Source: Eubacteriaceae bacterium (lineage in GTDB: Bacteria; Bacillota; Clostridia; Eubacteriales; Garciellaceae). Taken from it: 39,209 nt of DNA. Within the stretch, counting starts at the first letter, position 1, and the number at the start of each line of letters is the position of its first letter. Shown in pieces: positions 4,371 to 26,114 of this stretch. Where the stretch lies: contig DUPX01000126.1 of NCBI GenBank assembly GCA_012838085.1, positions 1 through 39,209 on the forward strand, given 5' to 3'. The notes beneath the pieces were generated by a model. That model was not told where the DNA came from, did not search any database, and saw only the letters and a program-made list of their open reading frames with translations. A program made the position numbers and the translations under genes.

Positions 4371-5483
4371 TTGACTAAGATAACCTATAAAGTTTTGCTT
4401 ATTATTGTTTTAGCTCTTTTTTGTATTGGGTGTTCAAATTTTTTCGTAAAAGATAATAAACCTAAGACTATTCAAGATAATAGTGTTCAAAATAATAAAG
4501 AAATGAGCTCTTTAAGTGATGTAAAAGATTTTAAAAGTATTACTCAAGGAATAATAGGAGATATTAGTTCCCAAGGGGAAAATATTGTCCTATTAAGAGA
4601 AGATGATATAGATATAGATTCACAGGAAAAAGAGGAAGATACAACTTATAATTTATCCCTTTATAATCTTAAAGAGGAAAAGATTTATAATATTATTTCT
4701 TCTCCAATAAATTTATTTTTAAATCGATTGGATGCCACAGAAGAAGGGGTTTATTTTTTAGAAAATAAAGAGGAATCCCTTTTTCAATTATATTGGTTTA
4801 GTATTAATGACAATAAAAAAGTTCGTATTTCTTCTACAGAACATCAAGTAAACCCTAGTTTTTATGTGAAGTCTAATAATGAAGTTTATTATGGAACTAA
4901 AGATGGAAAGATTATAAGGGCTAATGAAAGAAATATTCTAAGAATTATTGATATTGGTTCTGATTATAATATTTTTCAAATATATTTTTTTGAGAATAGA
5001 GATTTAATATTATTTTCCGCATATAAAGACCAAGTGTTAAGTTTGTATTCTATGAATTCTAGAGGAGAAGATTTTAAGGAAGTTTTGTCTAACATTAATG
5101 GTAGCTTTAATGTATCAAAAAAAGAGGATAAAGTATTATATACCGCTCCCATTACTGACAGCAATAAATCTATTCTTTGGTTATTTGAACTGGATGAGGA
5201 AGATAAAGATATAAAGTTATTAGAAGGATATCCCCAAAGGGCAGTGTTTTCTCCTAAAGGAGATAGAATTGCCTACTTAGATAAGCCGGATTCAAACAGT
5301 GATCTTCTGAATATTTGGGTTTTATATTTAGAAAACCAAGAAAAGAAACAGATTGGTTCAAATTTAAAAATTACCAGTGAATTGTTTTGGCATCCTAAAG
5401 AAAATAGATTATTCTTTTCAGCCTATGAATCTAGGGATAATAAACTCCAATCTCAGGTTTATTCTTTAGATTTTGAAGACTAG
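4371..5483 (+). CDS. Secreted lipoprotein with TolB/PD40-like propeller repeats
   Basis: This 370-residue protein has a hydrophobic signal (about 7-20) and a lipobox-like CIGC with the lipidated Cys at 21, so it should be anchored outside the cytoplasmic membrane. The remainder is beta-rich. Near the C-terminus, repeats such as VFSPKGDRIAYLD and LFWHPKENRLFFSAY look like PD40/TolB-type propeller blades. The start is a TTG with a very strong AAGGAGGAG site. It lies 79 bases after the histidine kinase on the same strand and could be an accessory sensor or a target of the system, though this is inference from position. No catalytic residues are evident. The -3 position of the lipobox is Cys rather than the usual Leu/Val/Ile. 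Confidence 0.75.
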   Translation: MTKITYKVLLIIVLALFCIGCSNFFVKDNKPKTIQDNSVQNNKEMSSLSDVKDFKSITQGIIGDISSQGENIVLLREDDIDIDSQEKEEDTTYNLSLYNLKEEKIYNIISSPINLFLNRLDATEEGVYFLENKEESLFQLYWFSINDNKKVRISSTEHQVNPSFYVKSNNEVYYGTKDGKIIRANERNILRIIDIGSDYNIFQIYFFENRDLILFSAYKDQVLSLYSMNSRGEDFKEVLSNINGSFNVSKKEDKVLYTAPITDSNKSILWLFELDEEDKDIKLLEGYPQRAVFSPKGDRIAYLDKPDSNSDLLNIWVLYLENQEKKQIGSNLKITSELFWHPKENRLFFSAYESRDNKLQSQVYSLDFED

Positions 5484-20300: not shown

Positions 20301-20807
20301 TTATTGTTCAGTTTTAGCCATATATTCTATTGATACTACTTCATCATCCTCTATTAGTATTAATAGCTTTGAATTTCCCATTTCATAGGTATATAGTCCA
20401 TGTTCCTCAGTATAATTATCCCCATATGCTTGTAGCACCTCATCTAAGCTGGAAAATAAGTATATTCCTTCCTTTGTGGAAATACTATCATCAAGAAATA
20501 TAATAGAGGAAACATGGTCTATCCCGTCTATTTCATGGGTATGGAGTTCAAAAGGTCCATAGGTATATATCTTATCCATTCCTTGAAATGCACAACTTTC
20601 TGCTTCAAAATAATCCACTTCCTCACCTAGCCCCTCTAATATCTGGCTAGCTTCATCATACATCCTGATTGTAATACCATTATAGACAAATTCAAACCCT
20701 TTACTTTGCTGTTCTTCTCCATTGTTTACCGGCCCTGCGGTATTCTCTCCATTACTACAGCCCACAAATAATAATACTATTACTAAAAGCATAATTATCT
20801 TTTTCAT
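20301..20807 (-). CDS. Small lipoprotein of unknown function, last gene of the Dlt-like operon
   Basis: This 168-residue protein has a signal peptide (1-16) ending FVGC, with lipidation expected at C17. The mature part is acidic with alternating strands and helices and no motif I recognise. It contains phrases such as TIRMYDEASQILEGLGEEVDYFEAESCAF that recall small clostridial lipoproteins of two short repeats. I chose the ATG after GGTGAT. A TTG at 20825 is also in frame and would overlap the upstream stop codon. It is tightly linked to the SGNH gene, so it probably belongs to the envelope-modification system, though nothing in the sequence shows how. Confidence 0.7.
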   Translation of the reverse strand: MKKIIMLLVIVLLFVGCSNGENTAGPVNNGEEQQSKGFEFVYNGITIRMYDEASQILEGLGEEVDYFEAESCAFQGMDKIYTYGPFELHTHEIDGIDHVSSIIFLDDSISTKEGIYLFSSLDEVLQAYGDNYTEEHGLYTYEMGNSKLLILIEDDEVVSIEYMAKTEQ

Positions 20808-20821
20808 TTTATCACCTTTTT

Positions 20822-21898
20822 TCAATTGTTTTGTTTATCCCCAAAAATACTTTTTAGATAGCCAAACTCTTCTAGTTCTTTAACCTGCTCTTCTTTCATA
20901 GAATAATAAAAGTCCACTTTTTTTCCCCATTGTTTTTTTAATTCTTTATCCTGTCTTCTATCTTTTAAATTAAAGTGTTCCTTTAAATATCCTCCAAAAT
21001 GACGGGCTAGTTTTTCTGCTCCATATACATTTAAGTGAAGTCCACCATCATAAGTATCCTCATTAAAATCAATACCTACCTCATCAATTAATTCTAGATA
21101 ATTAATGTATTTTAAATCCTTGGCCTTAGCATATTCCCTTATTTGTTCATCCCACTCATCATACCAATAGGGGTATAAGCTAGGTGCCTTAACCAATACA
21201 AGATCTATATCATTTTTCTTTGTTAACTCTACCATCTTATCTAAATAATAATAGGCCCTCTCCCCAAATTCATAGTTGGGTAATTTTTTCCCCTTAGGTA
21301 TATTCCCTGCTGGCTTAATATCTGCTCTCATATAATATCCATTATGAAACATATCCTTCTTTTTAAAAATATATTTAAAATCCTCACTTTTTAGCTCATT
21401 CCACCTAGAGTGATATCTTAATAAAGGAAATATATATTCAATAAGATTTTCTTCCTCCGTCATTGATGCCATTATAGATTTTATTTTTGTTAAGGAAAAT
21501 TTCATACCATCTAAGGACATTCGATTATATGCTTCCTTTTGTGGTTCATTGTACATCATGGCTAGAACATTAAATACTACTATTTCAGGTTTTTCATATT
21601 TTAATGTTTCCTCTAATAGATAATAGGACTGCCAAATTAATTGTTGGGCACTACCCCTTATATAGCTGGTAATACCATATTCTTCCCAGAGGGTTATTGG
21701 AGAAAAGTTTTCATATACCTCACAGTCTCCTATAAAGATTACATCATTATTCTTTTCCACCTTATAATAATCTTCCACTAATGAACCTTCTAGGGTACCA
21801 AAAACATGCTTAGGCATAAGTAGTTTTTGTAAGAAAAAGAGGTTGGCCAATAATAAGCATCCCACTAATAAGCTGATTGCTAATCTTTTCTTTTTCAT
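20822..21898 (-). CDS. SGNH-like extracellular acyltransferase candidate with Cys in the nucleophile position
   Basis: This 358-residue protein has one N-terminal membrane segment (about 7-27) with the remainder expected outside the cell. Block I of the SGNH fold is VIFIGDCEVYENF, with C59 where the GDS or GSS motif normally has its nucleophilic Ser. The C-terminal acid/base block is DGGLHLNVYGAEKLA (D284, H288). It lies ten bases after the MBOAT gene and takes the place of DltD in Dlt operons or AlgJ/AlgX in alginate acetylation. I infer that it takes the acyl group from the MBOAT and passes it to an envelope polymer. From memory, GDCEVYENFSP and the following segment recur in many clostridial proteins beside MBOATs, so the Cys is probably a family trait. 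The start is an ATG after a GGGGGGAA site. Confidence 0.8.
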   Translation of the reverse strand: MKKKRLAISLLVGCLLLANLFFLQKLLMPKHVFGTLEGSLVEDYYKVEKNNDVIFIGDCEVYENFSPITLWEEYGITSYIRGSAQQLIWQSYYLLEETLKYEKPEIVVFNVLAMMYNEPQKEAYNRMSLDGMKFSLTKIKSIMASMTEEENLIEYIFPLLRYHSRWNELKSEDFKYIFKKKDMFHNGYYMRADIKPAGNIPKGKKLPNYEFGERAYYYLDKMVELTKKNDIDLVLVKAPSLYPYWYDEWDEQIREYAKAKDLKYINYLELIDEVGIDFNEDTYDGGLHLNVYGAEKLARHFGGYLKEHFNLKDRRQDKELKKQWGKKVDFYYSMKEEQVKELEEFGYLKSIFGDKQNN

Positions 21899-21907
21899 AA
21901 TTCCCCC

Positions 21908-23485
21908 CTAAAACTGATTATATATAAATTGGTTTGCATCATAGCCTATCCCATAAGCACCAAAGATTAGGATGGCAATAATTAATGCGTAGTTTAATGC
22001 ATAACCAACTACCATATTACTTTCTGCAATTTTCCCTCTAACACTTCCTGTTCTCTGTACTAGGCTTACTATTAGCAGTACAACAAATCCTAACAATAAA
22101 ATAAAATAATCACTTAAACTTAATCCTAAGTTTGCCAGACTTCCATTAAAAAGCATATGGATATTGGGTTTTGTAAATATTGTCCCAAACATTCTTAAGG
22201 TCATTGGGACATCTCTATATAAATCAAATAGCCGTATAGCACTCATTAGTAAAGTGGTACGGATTATTTGAAAAAGCCTAAAGCCAAAGGTTCCCCCCAC
22301 TTTAAATTTATTGTGAAACCAGTTATAGAAGGGTTTGCATTCAAGGGAAATAATTATTACAATCCCATTAGTTAGACCCCAGGCAATAAAATTCCAATTT
22401 GCCCCATGCCATAAACCTGTTGTAAACCAGACTATCAAAGTTGTTAGATATACAGGAAGTTTCTTACCAAAATTATTTCCAAATTTATTTCTTGAAAATT
22501 TAGCAAAATTTAACATGGGTTTCCATACTGAAAGGGGATAAAATAAATAATCTTTAAACCAAGTCCCCATGGTTATATGCCATCTTCTCCAAAATTCTGT
22601 AATAGACTTTGAAAAATAAGGCCTTTCAAAGTTTTCCCTAACCTTTATACCTAAAACCTCTGATATACCTATAGTAATATCTATTCCTCCAGTAAAATCA
22701 GCATATAATTGATAGGTGTAAAATAACATTCCCAAAAATACAAAAATGCCTTGATAAGCCTCTGGATCCCTTATTATAGTGTTAACAGCTACTAGCATCC
22801 TATCAGCGATAACCAATTTTTTAAAGAAACCCCACATAATTCTTTGAAGGCCAAAATTAAGGTTTTTTCTATCAAAACTATGTTCTGTAAATAGGGTTTC
22901 TGATAAATCATCAAATCTGCTAATTGGTCCCTGAATCAATTGGGGAAAATATGATACAAATAATGCAAATTTAAATATATTTTTTTCTGGAGGATATTTT
23001 CCCCTATACACATCAATTATATAGCTCATGGTCTTAAAGGTATAAAAGGAAATCCCCATAGGTAATGCTATATTCCAAAAAGTAAGTCGTTTTGAACTAC
23101 CTATTAGCTCTAATATCCCATTAATATTTTCTATTGTGAAATTTGTATATTTAGCGATGACTAATAGACCAAAGTTTAGTAACAGACATACTAATAACCA
23201 CTTCCATAACCTAGATTTCATAAATGCCCTATAGGACTTTTTTTCCTCCCTAGACAATGAAGCTTTATGGTCAGCTAAATAATTGGAGTGTATATTATGA
23301 AGTTCTCCAATCTTAATTCCTATAAAATAGGTTGTTATTGTGGTAAATAGTATATAAAATAAAAATTTAATACTCATAAGACTATAAAATAAATAGCTAG
23401 CTGCTAATAACAATACCCATTGAAGCCCCTTAGGAATTGTATAATACAATATAAATATTATAAAACTATAAGATGTAAAAAGCAT
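21908..23485 (-). CDS. MBOAT family O-acyltransferase (DltB/AlgI-like) with C-terminal FIYNQF
   Basis: This 525-residue polytopic membrane protein carries the MBOAT core: FYTFKTMSYIIDVYRGK (about 147-163), ITEFWRRWHITMGTWF (295-310) and FTTGLWHGANWNFIAWG with the invariant H360. It should move an acyl group from the cytoplasmic carrier protein across the membrane. A final membrane segment (about 494-513) is followed by a short tail ending FIYNQF (520-525, Tyr 522). This resembles the C-terminal hexapeptide acyl-shuttle motif, described on the DltX microprotein and fused to the MBOAT in other systems, whose Tyr carries the acyl group. No separate DltX-like gene is visible. It follows the carrier gene by 12 bases and precedes the SGNH gene by 9. 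Confidence 0.93.
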   Translation of the reverse strand: MLFTSYSFIIFILYYTIPKGLQWVLLLAASYLFYSLMSIKFLFYILFTTITTYFIGIKIGELHNIHSNYLADHKASLSREEKKSYRAFMKSRLWKWLLVCLLLNFGLLVIAKYTNFTIENINGILELIGSSKRLTFWNIALPMGISFYTFKTMSYIIDVYRGKYPPEKNIFKFALFVSYFPQLIQGPISRFDDLSETLFTEHSFDRKNLNFGLQRIMWGFFKKLVIADRMLVAVNTIIRDPEAYQGIFVFLGMLFYTYQLYADFTGGIDITIGISEVLGIKVRENFERPYFSKSITEFWRRWHITMGTWFKDYLFYPLSVWKPMLNFAKFSRNKFGNNFGKKLPVYLTTLIVWFTTGLWHGANWNFIAWGLTNGIVIIISLECKPFYNWFHNKFKVGGTFGFRLFQIIRTTLLMSAIRLFDLYRDVPMTLRMFGTIFTKPNIHMLFNGSLANLGLSLSDYFILLLGFVVLLIVSLVQRTGSVRGKIAESNMVVGYALNYALIIAILIFGAYGIGYDANQFIYNQF

Positions 23486-23497
23486 TATTGCCTCCTA

Positions 23498-23725
23498 TTA
23501 ATAGTCAGATAATCGCTCTATCATTGCATATAAAGCCTTTGCTGAGTTAAAGTTTTCTGGTATTATCTCCTCAGCAGGTATGGCTATATCAAATTCCTCA
23601 TTAATTTCAGTAACTAATGTAATAATATCAAAGCTGTCCAACACCTTGTCGTCCACCAATCTTTCATGTGTTTCAAAGTCTATATCCTCATGTAATTCTT
23701 GTAGAATCTCTAATAAAGTCTCCAT
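23498..23725 (-). CDS. Acyl/aminoacyl carrier protein (DltC-like)
   Basis: This 75-residue acidic helical protein has the phosphopantetheine site LDSFDIITLV, with Ser 31 in DSFD. The length and the sequence EINEEFDIAIPAEEI match D-alanyl carrier proteins and other small carriers. It should accept an activated acyl or aminoacyl group from the adjacent ligase as a thioester and present it to the MBOAT. The ATG follows a strong GGAGGATAAAG site. It lies 19 bases after the ligase gene and 12 before the MBOAT gene. It could also be called a generic acyl carrier protein, but its position between ligase and MBOAT makes a DltC-like role more likely than fatty acid synthesis. Confidence 0.9.
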   Translation of the reverse strand: METLLEILQELHEDIDFETHERLVDDKVLDSFDIITLVTEINEEFDIAIPAEEIIPENFNSAKALYAMIERLSDY

Positions 23726-23744
23726 CTTTATCCTCCTTTGATTG

Positions 23745-25247
23745 TTAAATAATATTCTTTAAATATACTCTATCTATTTTCCCATTTGATGTTAGAGGAA
23801 TGCTTTCTAACTTTTTAATTTTATTTGGTACCATATGCCTTGGTAAAGACTTTTTTAAGCCCTCTAATACTTCCCTTTTGCTTATATCTCCAGCATAAAA
23901 TAAAATTATTTGTCCTTTCTCATGATTATATAGTGTGGCAGCACCATTAACACCCTTTAACATATTTACATGACTGTCAATCTCTCCTAACTCAATTCGA
24001 TGGCCCATGTGTTTAACTTGGTGATCCTTTCGGGATACAAATACAAGTTCCCCCCACTCATTGTATTTTCCTATATCCCCTGTCCGATATATTAGTTCAG
24101 GATAGGCATTGTTTAGAGGGTTTTGAACAAATACTTCCCTTGTTTTTTCAAAATCCTTATAATAGCCTAATGTAAGGGACGTCCCCCTTATGCATATTTC
24201 TCCCTGTTCACCCTTCTTACAAAGTTTATTCTCATCATTTAACAATAAAATTTCAGTGTTTTTAAAGGGTTGTCCAATAGGTAAAACATCCTCCTCTTGA
24301 AAATCACGATTAACCCTATAAAAACAACACATACCTGTGGTTTCAGTTGGTCCATATAAGTTTATAAATTTTGCATTAGGCAATGCCTTTCGCCATAGAT
24401 TAAATTGTTTTATGGGAAAAACCTCACTTCCAAAGGCTATAGTATGGAGATATTCCGGTATAGATTTATCCAATACCTTAAAAGCGGAAATCATTGTTAG
24501 AGCAGTAACCACCCAACATATAGTGTTAATCTTATATTTATTTAAAAAATCCACTAATTTAATGGGAAAGGAAAATAAACTTTTGGGAATTATATAGGTG
24601 GTTGCACCCAATTTTAGAGTAGAATATATTTCCTTTAAACTGGCATCTAGATATAAGGGTGTCTGATTGCCAAAGATGGTGTCCTGGTCCACCTCTAAAA
24701 TCTCTGTCAAATTATCTATATAATCTATCACTGAACGATGGTTAGCAATTACTCCCTTAGGAATACCCGTTGAACCAGAAGTAAATACAATATATATTGG
24801 GTCGGTATCTATAGATTGAGATCTAATTTTTTCTAAAGCCTTTTCATTAATTTGTGTCTTAACTATCTTCTCAAATAGAAAAATCTCCCCTTGAAAATCA
24901 AAGGTCTGAGCAATTTCCTCGGTAGTATTATCACAAATTATTAATTTGGGATTTAGTTTTTCCAATATTAGTTTTATTCTATATTCTGGCATTTCTTCAT
25001 CAATTGGAACATAATAGTTGCCTCCATAGACAGTGCCTTGAAAAGCAACTATTGTTTCGGGACTCTTTTTCATAAATATAATAATAGGTTCTTTATAAAA
25101 ACCCTTATTATGTAGAAATGTACCTATTGCCCTTCCCTGGTCATAGACTTCTTTAAAAGTTATAGTATGATCACCATCACCAAAGGCAATTTTATTAGGG
25201 AATAGCTCCACTATATTTTCCAAATATTCCAGTATATTAATTTGCAT
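23745..25247 (-). CDS. DltA-like amino acid adenylating ligase
   Basis: This 500-residue ANL-superfamily enzyme activates a carboxylate with ATP and loads it on the carrier protein. It shows the P-loop TSGSTGIPKG (156-165), YGPTE (298-302), TGDIGKYNEWGELVFVSRKD (389-408), RIELGEID (417-424) and catalytic K490 in SNGKIDR. Length and layout match DltA. D201 in YLDASLKEIY aligns with the Asp that holds the substrate amine in DltA and peptide synthetase A domains, so an amino acid substrate is likely. In DltA a Cys in FCGE selects D-Ala; here the matching stretch reads FGSE (272-275). Substrate identity is therefore open. The ATG follows AAGGAGG, 15 bases after the transglutaminase-like gene. Confidence 0.88.
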   Translation of the reverse strand: MQINILEYLENIVELFPNKIAFGDGDHTITFKEVYDQGRAIGTFLHNKGFYKEPIIIFMKKSPETIVAFQGTVYGGNYYVPIDEEMPEYRIKLILEKLNPKLIICDNTTEEIAQTFDFQGEIFLFEKIVKTQINEKALEKIRSQSIDTDPIYIVFTSGSTGIPKGVIANHRSVIDYIDNLTEILEVDQDTIFGNQTPLYLDASLKEIYSTLKLGATTYIIPKSLFSFPIKLVDFLNKYKINTICWVVTALTMISAFKVLDKSIPEYLHTIAFGSEVFPIKQFNLWRKALPNAKFINLYGPTETTGMCCFYRVNRDFQEEDVLPIGQPFKNTEILLLNDENKLCKKGEQGEICIRGTSLTLGYYKDFEKTREVFVQNPLNNAYPELIYRTGDIGKYNEWGELVFVSRKDHQVKHMGHRIELGEIDSHVNMLKGVNGAATLYNHEKGQIILFYAGDISKREVLEGLKKSLPRHMVPNKIKKLESIPLTSNGKIDRVYLKNII

Positions 25248-25262
25248 TGGTTCCTCCTTATA

Positions 25263-26114
25263 CTAGTTTTCTGGTGAGGAAGGGGCCCTGTCCCTATCCC
25301 ATACATGACTATTTTTGTGTTTTTTAGAATACTTACTCAATTGTTCATCGGTAAACATAAAGATCTCTGTTTTATCACCCTTGCGGGGGGTAGCATCTAT
25401 ATGGTACCATTTACCATCTATCTTCATCATACTCCAAAAATGGGTACCAGTGGTCTTTACGATATCCACATTAAGAATATTTGCTCCATCCAATAAGGCT
25501 TTTACAGTGGCAAAATATATATAACAATCCCCATTTCTCTTCTTTATTCCTCGAATAGCTGCCTTTATTGGGTCGGATTTATCTGAATCATTCACATAAC
25601 CAATCTTATATCTAGCCCATTTATATATTGCCTTAGCTTTTTCTTTTTCTGACATATCTTCCTTTAATATAGATTCTAAAACTTGATTTACTAATTCCTC
25701 TAATTCTTTTTCCTCTGAACTTTTTTCTGGAATTTCCTCTGGTTTTTCCTTTACTACAATCCTTTTAGTAATATCTGTCCTATTTCCAGCAGTATCTACA
25801 GCACTATATACTACTTCATATACACCAGGTTTTTTTATATTTACCTTACTGCTGTCTACAATTAACTCTATATCTTCATCAACATTATCACTGACTACAA
25901 CACCCTTTTTGTAAGAAATACTTTCCCCCTCAATTATTTCTTGATTTACAGCCCCTTCAATAATTGGAGCTTCCTTATCCAACATAATAACAATCTTATC
26001 TAAAACCACTGGGTAAGCTTTAATTCCTCCTATTACCAACAAAATAAAAATAACAAGAAACATTATTCGTCCGGTTCTTAAACCCTTTTTATTTCTCTTT
26101 CCTTTTCTAGTCAT
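25263..26114 (-). CDS. Membrane-anchored Ig-like and transglutaminase-like protein
   Basis: This 283-residue protein has a basic N-terminus, one membrane segment (about 16-36) and a large external part. Residues about 48-123 look like a DUF5011/HYR-type Ig-like domain (EAPIIEG, GVVVSDNVDED, GVYEVVYSAVDTAGN). Residues about 140-270 form a transglutaminase-like domain with a Cys-His-Asp triad: C197 in NGDCYIY, H225 in GTHFWSMM and D240 in WYHIDATP. Such external transglutaminase-like proteins can act on proteins or wall peptides; a function here is not shown. It is the first gene of the Dlt-like operon, with an AGAGGGG site before its ATG. Its position suggests a role on the same envelope substrate. 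Confidence 0.85.
   Translation of the reverse strand: MTRKGKRNKKGLRTGRIMFLVIFILLVIGGIKAYPVVLDKIVIMLDKEAPIIEGAVNQEIIEGESISYKKGVVVSDNVDEDIELIVDSSKVNIKKPGVYEVVYSAVDTAGNRTDITKRIVVKEKPEEIPEKSSEEKELEELVNQVLESILKEDMSEKEKAKAIYKWARYKIGYVNDSDKSDPIKAAIRGIKKRNGDCYIYFATVKALLDGANILNVDIVKTTGTHFWSMMKIDGKWYHIDATPRKGDKTEIFMFTDEQLSKYSKKHKNSHVWDRDRAPSSPEN

Follow-up and report, generated by a model that had tools for sequence, protein, structure and literature searches.

The window, the whole stretch of 39,209 nucleotides analysed here, carries a compact gene unit on its minus strand. Domains were assigned to its six open reading frames (ORFs) by Pfam and NCBIfam searches, and we refer to the genes by the letters given here, in order of transcription:

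20301..26114, minus strand: operon of six co-directional ORFs, neighbouring ORFs lying 9-19 bp apart or overlapping by 4 bp
25263..26114, minus strand: TG, a membrane-anchored Ig-like and transglutaminase-like protein (Pfam)
23745..25247, minus strand: A, a stand-alone amino-acid adenylation ligase (TIGR01733 over cut-off)
23498..23725, minus strand: C, a carrier protein (PP-binding over cut-off)
21908..23485, minus strand: B, an MBOAT (MBOAT over cut-off)
20822..21898, minus strand: S, a predicted membrane-anchored SGNH-fold transferase (AlphaFold2 model and Foldseek)
20301..20825, minus strand: L, a lipoprotein (weak lipobox match)

The initial annotation had described six tightly packed minus-strand genes across this interval, and all of the ORFs are found there. 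Its gene identities (Ig/transglutaminase, ligase, carrier, MBOAT and SGNH) agree with the Pfam and NCBIfam matches, the SGNH assignment coming through a structure model. It did not contain the three features on which much of what follows turns, namely a cysteine at the SGNH nucleophile position, a fused FIYNQF motif and the racemase of most relatives. The boundaries remain where it had set them, with uvrC upstream (186 bp gap), followed further out by uvrA and uvrB, and a HAD-type hydrolase downstream (123 bp gap), followed by an HprK-like gene and then MurB, RapZ and CofD. All of these genes lie outside the unit; uvrC, the hydrolase and the HprK-like gene were identified by eye. Promoter and terminator scans returned matches at chance level only. 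The source genome (1.70 Mb, 131 contigs, 98% complete) contains a single A-domain match (AMP-binding_C) and a single MBOAT, both in the operon. Elsewhere in the window, a 370-aa ORF (4371-5483) directly 3′ of a two-component regulator/kinase pair has no Pfam match at E 0.001.

The ligase A scores 214 bits against AMP-binding and 321.6 bits against TIGR01733 (cut-off 317.4). Against the DltA models TIGR01734 and PRK04813 it reaches 269 and 280 bits, about half of their cut-offs of 560 and 476, while the canonical DltA of Gottfriedia endophytica scores 696 bits. Mapped by GrsA numbering, the ten pocket positions of A (residues 201, 202, 205, 244, 271, 273, 297, 305, 306 and 490) read DAKCAGLGMK. 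Among the 87 A proteins whose code could be read, 77 share this code, for which we know of no exact match. Its third position (GrsA-239; Lys205 in A) is lysine in 81 of these proteins and arginine in 6. In the same alignment the canonical Gottfriedia DltA reads DLMTLCTVAK, differing at 8 of 10 positions and carrying methionine at the third, a comparison of codes that would argue against D-Ala as the substrate. Acid-specific adenylation domains with basic pocket residues are known, and the lysine at GrsA-239 is presumably a carboxylate contact. Because this conserved basic residue occurs together with an aspartate-type racemase (see below), A probably activates an acidic D-amino acid, with D-Asp or D-Glu the likeliest. 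A further weak match to the A profile (L115, code TGMVHGNGPK) was set aside as an unrelated acyl-CoA-ligase-like protein. The carrier C has a predicted phosphopantetheine site at Ser31 in LDSFD (23633-23635), and the DS of this motif is invariant (91/91).

The MBOAT protein keeps both conserved histidines, and its residues 143-380 are homologous to the catalytic region of DltB (8jem/6bug). At its C terminus lies FIYNQF, with Tyr522 encoded at 21920-21922; the F, Y and F of this FxYxxF motif are present in all 107 complete B homologs. In PatA and in the DltX shuttle, FxYxxF has been shown to carry the acyl group on its tyrosine, and in non-Dlt MBOAT/SGNH pathways the motif is fused to the MBOAT and there is no carrier protein (PMC12148441). 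The system described here combines a carrier protein with the fused motif. Gottfriedia contains both arrangements: its canonical operon encodes a separate DltX ending in FIYNDF and a motif-free DltB ending in FSGHLFK, and its second system, the one studied here, has an MBOAT with the fused motif.

S is recognised by fold. It scores 21.1 bits against Lipase_GDSL_2, below the cut-off of 32.9, and gives no match to the DltD family PF04914 at E values up to 1, while the canonical Gottfriedia DltD, used as a control, scores 391 bits and has GSS at the nucleophile. A sequence search of the PDB gave nothing useful. The AlphaFold2 model of S (pLDDT 89.4), which begins with an N-terminal helix of residues 2-27, retrieves SGNH hydrolases in Foldseek, among which DltD (6pfx), a full-length match, ranks first by TM-score over the query. 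At the SGNH nucleophile position S carries Cys59 (21722-21724), with Asp284 and His288 completing the site. Cysteine occupies this position in 109 of 109 S orthologs, in which the Asp and His are also conserved. The alignment, the tree and the model together make Cys59 very likely to be the nucleophile. A disulfide role was considered for Cys59 and, in this protein, rejected: the other common cysteine (226, A1 alignment) is threonine in S from the window, and Cys59 is kept regardless.

Cysteine-type S proteins form one side of a branch with 99/99 support, and the paralogs outside carry serine. Because the cysteine type is a single clade, the switch counts as one evolutionary event and not as many independent ones. 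Serine-type paralogs, including those at L078, L080 and L090 that lie with A, C and B, have neither TG nor L, whereas cysteine-type loci without A and C nearby still keep both; the switch thus follows TG and L and not the ligase. In the available text of an SGNH review, serine is the sole nucleophile described (PMC9487903), and our literature searches, covering open-licence papers, found no clade of SGNH proteins with a cysteine nucleophile.

In TG, both Bact_surface_Ig-like and Transglut_core exceed their cut-offs (Transglut_core 28.6 bits against 23), and an N-terminal transmembrane segment was identified by eye. A search of the PDB with TG returned Ig-domain matches and noise only. Its catalytic-type residues are encoded as follows:

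25524-25526, minus strand: C197 of the TG triad
25440-25442, minus strand: H225 of the TG triad
25395-25397, minus strand: D240 of the TG triad

Virtually all of the roughly 101 homologs keep these three residues, and many loci have two or three copies of the gene. L probably starts at an internal ATG at 20807 rather than at the TTG at 20825. It carries a lipobox cysteine (Cys23) and matches no family in the domain searches apart from the weak lipobox hit. Its model (pLDDT 86.9) is a two-lobed alpha/beta fold with weak likeness to DUF4309 YjgB and to YfeY. Lipobox region aside, Cys78, in a surface loop (SCAFQG), is the residue of L that is kept in every sequence (101/101). We provisionally suppose that handover to L, TG or an amine requires S to carry a thioester in place of the usual ester.

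We then asked how widely the set is kept, a check proposed in the initial annotation. Searching S against 391 genomes of the class, with its own locus counted among the matches, gave orthologs in 48 (identity 45-70%); the same set surrounds S at the 43 loci inspected, many of which have one more gene inserted between TG and A. A scan of a named genome collection gave 80 loci, 54 of them with enough sequence on both flanks. At these 54, B and C are always present, TG and L are found in 53 each, A in 52 and a racemase in 48. When the remaining neighbours were clustered, the top family, an ABC-type ATPase, reached 12 of about 124 loci. Gene order varies while content is kept, for example A-C-B-TG-racemase-S-L and TG-racemase-A-B-L-C-S. 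In two genomes the set is split into TG-racemase-C-B-S-L and a distant TG-A-L, and L is fused onto S at L065, L067 and L068. The co-occurrence of all six families is thereby borne out, and TG and L, which the initial annotation had counted in as the first and last genes, are true members, retained through rearrangement, splitting and S-L fusion. The distant TG-A-L mini-operons (L180:1371-5097 and L181:5754-9564) lack C, B and S, and the main operon in those genomes lacks A.

Named matches fall in Lachnospiraceae, including Blautia, and in Paenibacillus, Cohnella and Gottfriedia. By S, the nearest relatives include an unclassified Clostridiales MAG and Alkalibacter mobilis, and among the three genomes of the same family no homologs were found outside the window's own genome. 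One operon (L119) lies on a contig labelled Anaerolineaceae (Chloroflexota), yet in the tree of S it branches within the Clostridiales, which suggests transfer or a binning error. Searches of open-licence papers found no earlier description of the gene set.

The seventh member, the additional gene seen at many loci and missing from the operon in the window, is an Asp/Glu-type racemase (PF01177). All five racemases tested pass the TIGR00035 asp_race cut-off, and three of the five, including the homolog in the window's genome, pass that for the CuyB cysteate racemase. This homolog lies away from the operon, is 30-41% identical to operon racemases and exceeds both cut-offs. TIGR00035-type racemases are varied, and several different amino acids can serve as substrates of the family. 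Pocket-code variants of A occur both with and without a racemase at the locus.

Some loci depart from the standard set on the donor side. Three genomes of one genus (L071:5111-8922, L069 and L075) carry S-L-TG-TG beside polyprenyl-phosphate-type glycosyltransferases, with GT87 and GT2 (PgfS-like) genes directly 5′ of S and no A, C or B nearby; a search of these genomes for A found none. Their nearest B homolog lies at another site, where its neighbours are an FkbH domain protein, an ACP and a ThrH phosphatase. This cluster (L176:4741-9384, L177 and L178; FkbH-ACP-glyoxalase-MBOAT-ThrH, the MBOAT homologous to B) looks like a carrier-fed system for transfer of a glyceryl or related group, and FkbH proteins load glyceryl groups on carrier proteins. 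Because of the loci without A, C and B and the FkbH-ACP pair beside the B homolog, the donor module appears exchangeable, with S, L and TG seemingly the constant core. Likewise, since some cysteine-type loci lack A and C, and three genomes have FkbH-ACP instead, the acyl group would vary among loci. At L179 (4950-8171), an A protein 44% identical to that of the window lies beside a lysA/TIGR03099-like PLP decarboxylase and a carrier, with the decarboxylase gene placed between A and C; its substrate likely differs. Two operons adjoin peptidase genes, an L,D-transpeptidase and D-Ala-D-Ala carboxypeptidase fusion at L067 (10492-12324) and an M15-type D-Ala-D-Ala peptidase at L072 (4124-6271), neighbours that hint at peptidoglycan involvement.

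The system shares with Dlt (dltXABCD) an adenylating ligase, a small carrier, an MBOAT, a membrane-anchored SGNH protein and the FxYxxF tyrosine shuttle. It differs in its order, TG-(racemase)-A-C-B-S-L, in having the shuttle fused to the MBOAT where Dlt has a separate DltX, in the cysteine of S where DltD has serine, in the lack of a DltD family match in S, in a pocket code of A unlike that of DltA, and in the added racemase, TG and L. With PatA/PatB O-acetylation it shares an MBOAT with a fused C-terminal FxYxxF and an extracellular SGNH enzyme; that system uses acyl-CoA and no carrier (PMC12148441), whereas a ligase, a carrier and a cysteine at the nucleophile position are present here. The serine-type A-C-B-S loci of the same class (L078, L080 and L090) share the ligase, carrier, SGNH protein and MBOAT with the shuttle motif or a close variant, but have a serine nucleophile and no TG, L or Asp-type racemase. 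Tested feature by feature, the system has the catalytic His and FxYxxF in B and an SGNH-fold partner, as expected of MBOAT-SGNH systems, and lacks their serine nucleophile; of the Dlt features, it lacks a DltA equivalog, a DltD with serine, and a separate DltX with a motif-free DltB. By these sequence features it is best classed as a variant of MBOAT-SGNH envelope acylation and not as a member of Dlt. Since Gottfriedia endophytica has a canonical dlt operon alongside the studied one in a single genome, the latter is not merely its Dlt. The earlier proposal of a system related to, yet distinct from, dltABCD therefore stands.

We propose a carrier-fed MBOAT-SGNH system that transfers an acidic D-amino acid via a thioester onto an envelope acceptor, with TG and L acting on the acceptor side, a reading to which we give a probability of about 60%. 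A racemase, operon-borne in most relatives and encoded elsewhere in this genome, would make the acidic D-amino acid, likeliest D-Asp or D-Glu; A would adenylate it and load it on C at Ser31; and B would move the aminoacyl group across the membrane to its own Tyr522. Extracellular S would then receive the group on Cys59 as a thioester, assisted by His288 and Asp284, and hand it to the envelope acceptor, while TG and L, each with an invariant cysteine, would receive, position or further process the activated group. The first three steps follow by homology; which amino acid and which acceptor take part, and what TG and L do, we infer, the role of TG being a guess. Counted against the reading is the reliance of the window's operon, without a racemase of its own, on a homolog elsewhere in the genome. 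A more speculative extension, which we regard as unlikely, is a cysteine relay from the tyrosine of B to Cys59 of S, to the cysteines of L and TG and then to an amine. Such a relay, extracellular, ATP-free and loosely reminiscent of a ubiquitin-type thioester cascade, would attach an acidic D-amino acid by amide or isopeptide linkage to peptidoglycan or to a protein of the cell surface.

The same machinery might instead activate a different amino acid or a hydroxy acid, with a racemase of broad specificity, an alternative with a minor but real share of the probability. The variety of the racemase family, the unmatched pocket code and the varying donor modules (FkbH and ACP by B homologs, the decarboxylase between A and C) fit it, but the basic residue at 239 is always kept, and cysteate, the CuyB substrate, is likewise an acidic analogue of Asp. 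It is improbable that the operon is an ordinary though divergent Dlt system, which would load D-Ala and esterify it to (lipo)teichoic acid with TG and L as accessories. The activation-carrier-MBOAT-SGNH logic is the same, the DltA models are among the highest-scoring families for A, DltD is the leading fold match to S, and the genome has one sulfatase/LtaS-family protein. Against this stand the half-cut-off scores and deviating pocket of A, the cysteine of S and its lack of a DltD match, the fused shuttle in place of DltX, the Asp-type racemase of the operons, the coexisting dlt of Gottfriedia and the result that no TagB/F-type gene was found in the window's genome. Slightly more doubtful still is a central role for TG, in which it would cross-link surface proteins or polymers with the installed aminoacyl group as amine substrate. 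The kept C-H-D residues, the multiplied gene copies and the persistence of TG with S and L at loci without A, C or B nearby would suit such a role; however, many transglutaminase-fold proteins of bacteria are proteases or hydrolases, so that the fold alone is no proof of cross-linking, and no acceptor protein is encoded nearby. That TG and L are unrelated genes next to a Dlt-like core can be dismissed, for accidental adjacency of two genes, possible in general, is excluded by their 53/54 conservation, their retention across rearranged and split loci and the S-L fusions.

The preferred reading, transfer of an acidic D-amino acid through a cysteine-type SGNH protein, concerns a widespread envelope-modification system, found in 48 of 391 sampled genomes of the class. 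The set, of seven genes with six in the window, is common to many gut and soil Firmicutes and includes two companion surface proteins, TG and L, that are not part of the classic Dlt pathway. It makes an exception to two working rules, that an MBOAT fed by a carrier depends on DltX as a separate protein and that the nucleophile of SGNH transferases is serine. Because the cysteine switch is linked to TG and L, it offers a direct way to test the function of both families. If the reading is true, the group added by the modification would be acidic or zwitterionic and would not bring the positive charge of D-Ala, and its purpose would therefore be unlike that of Dlt.
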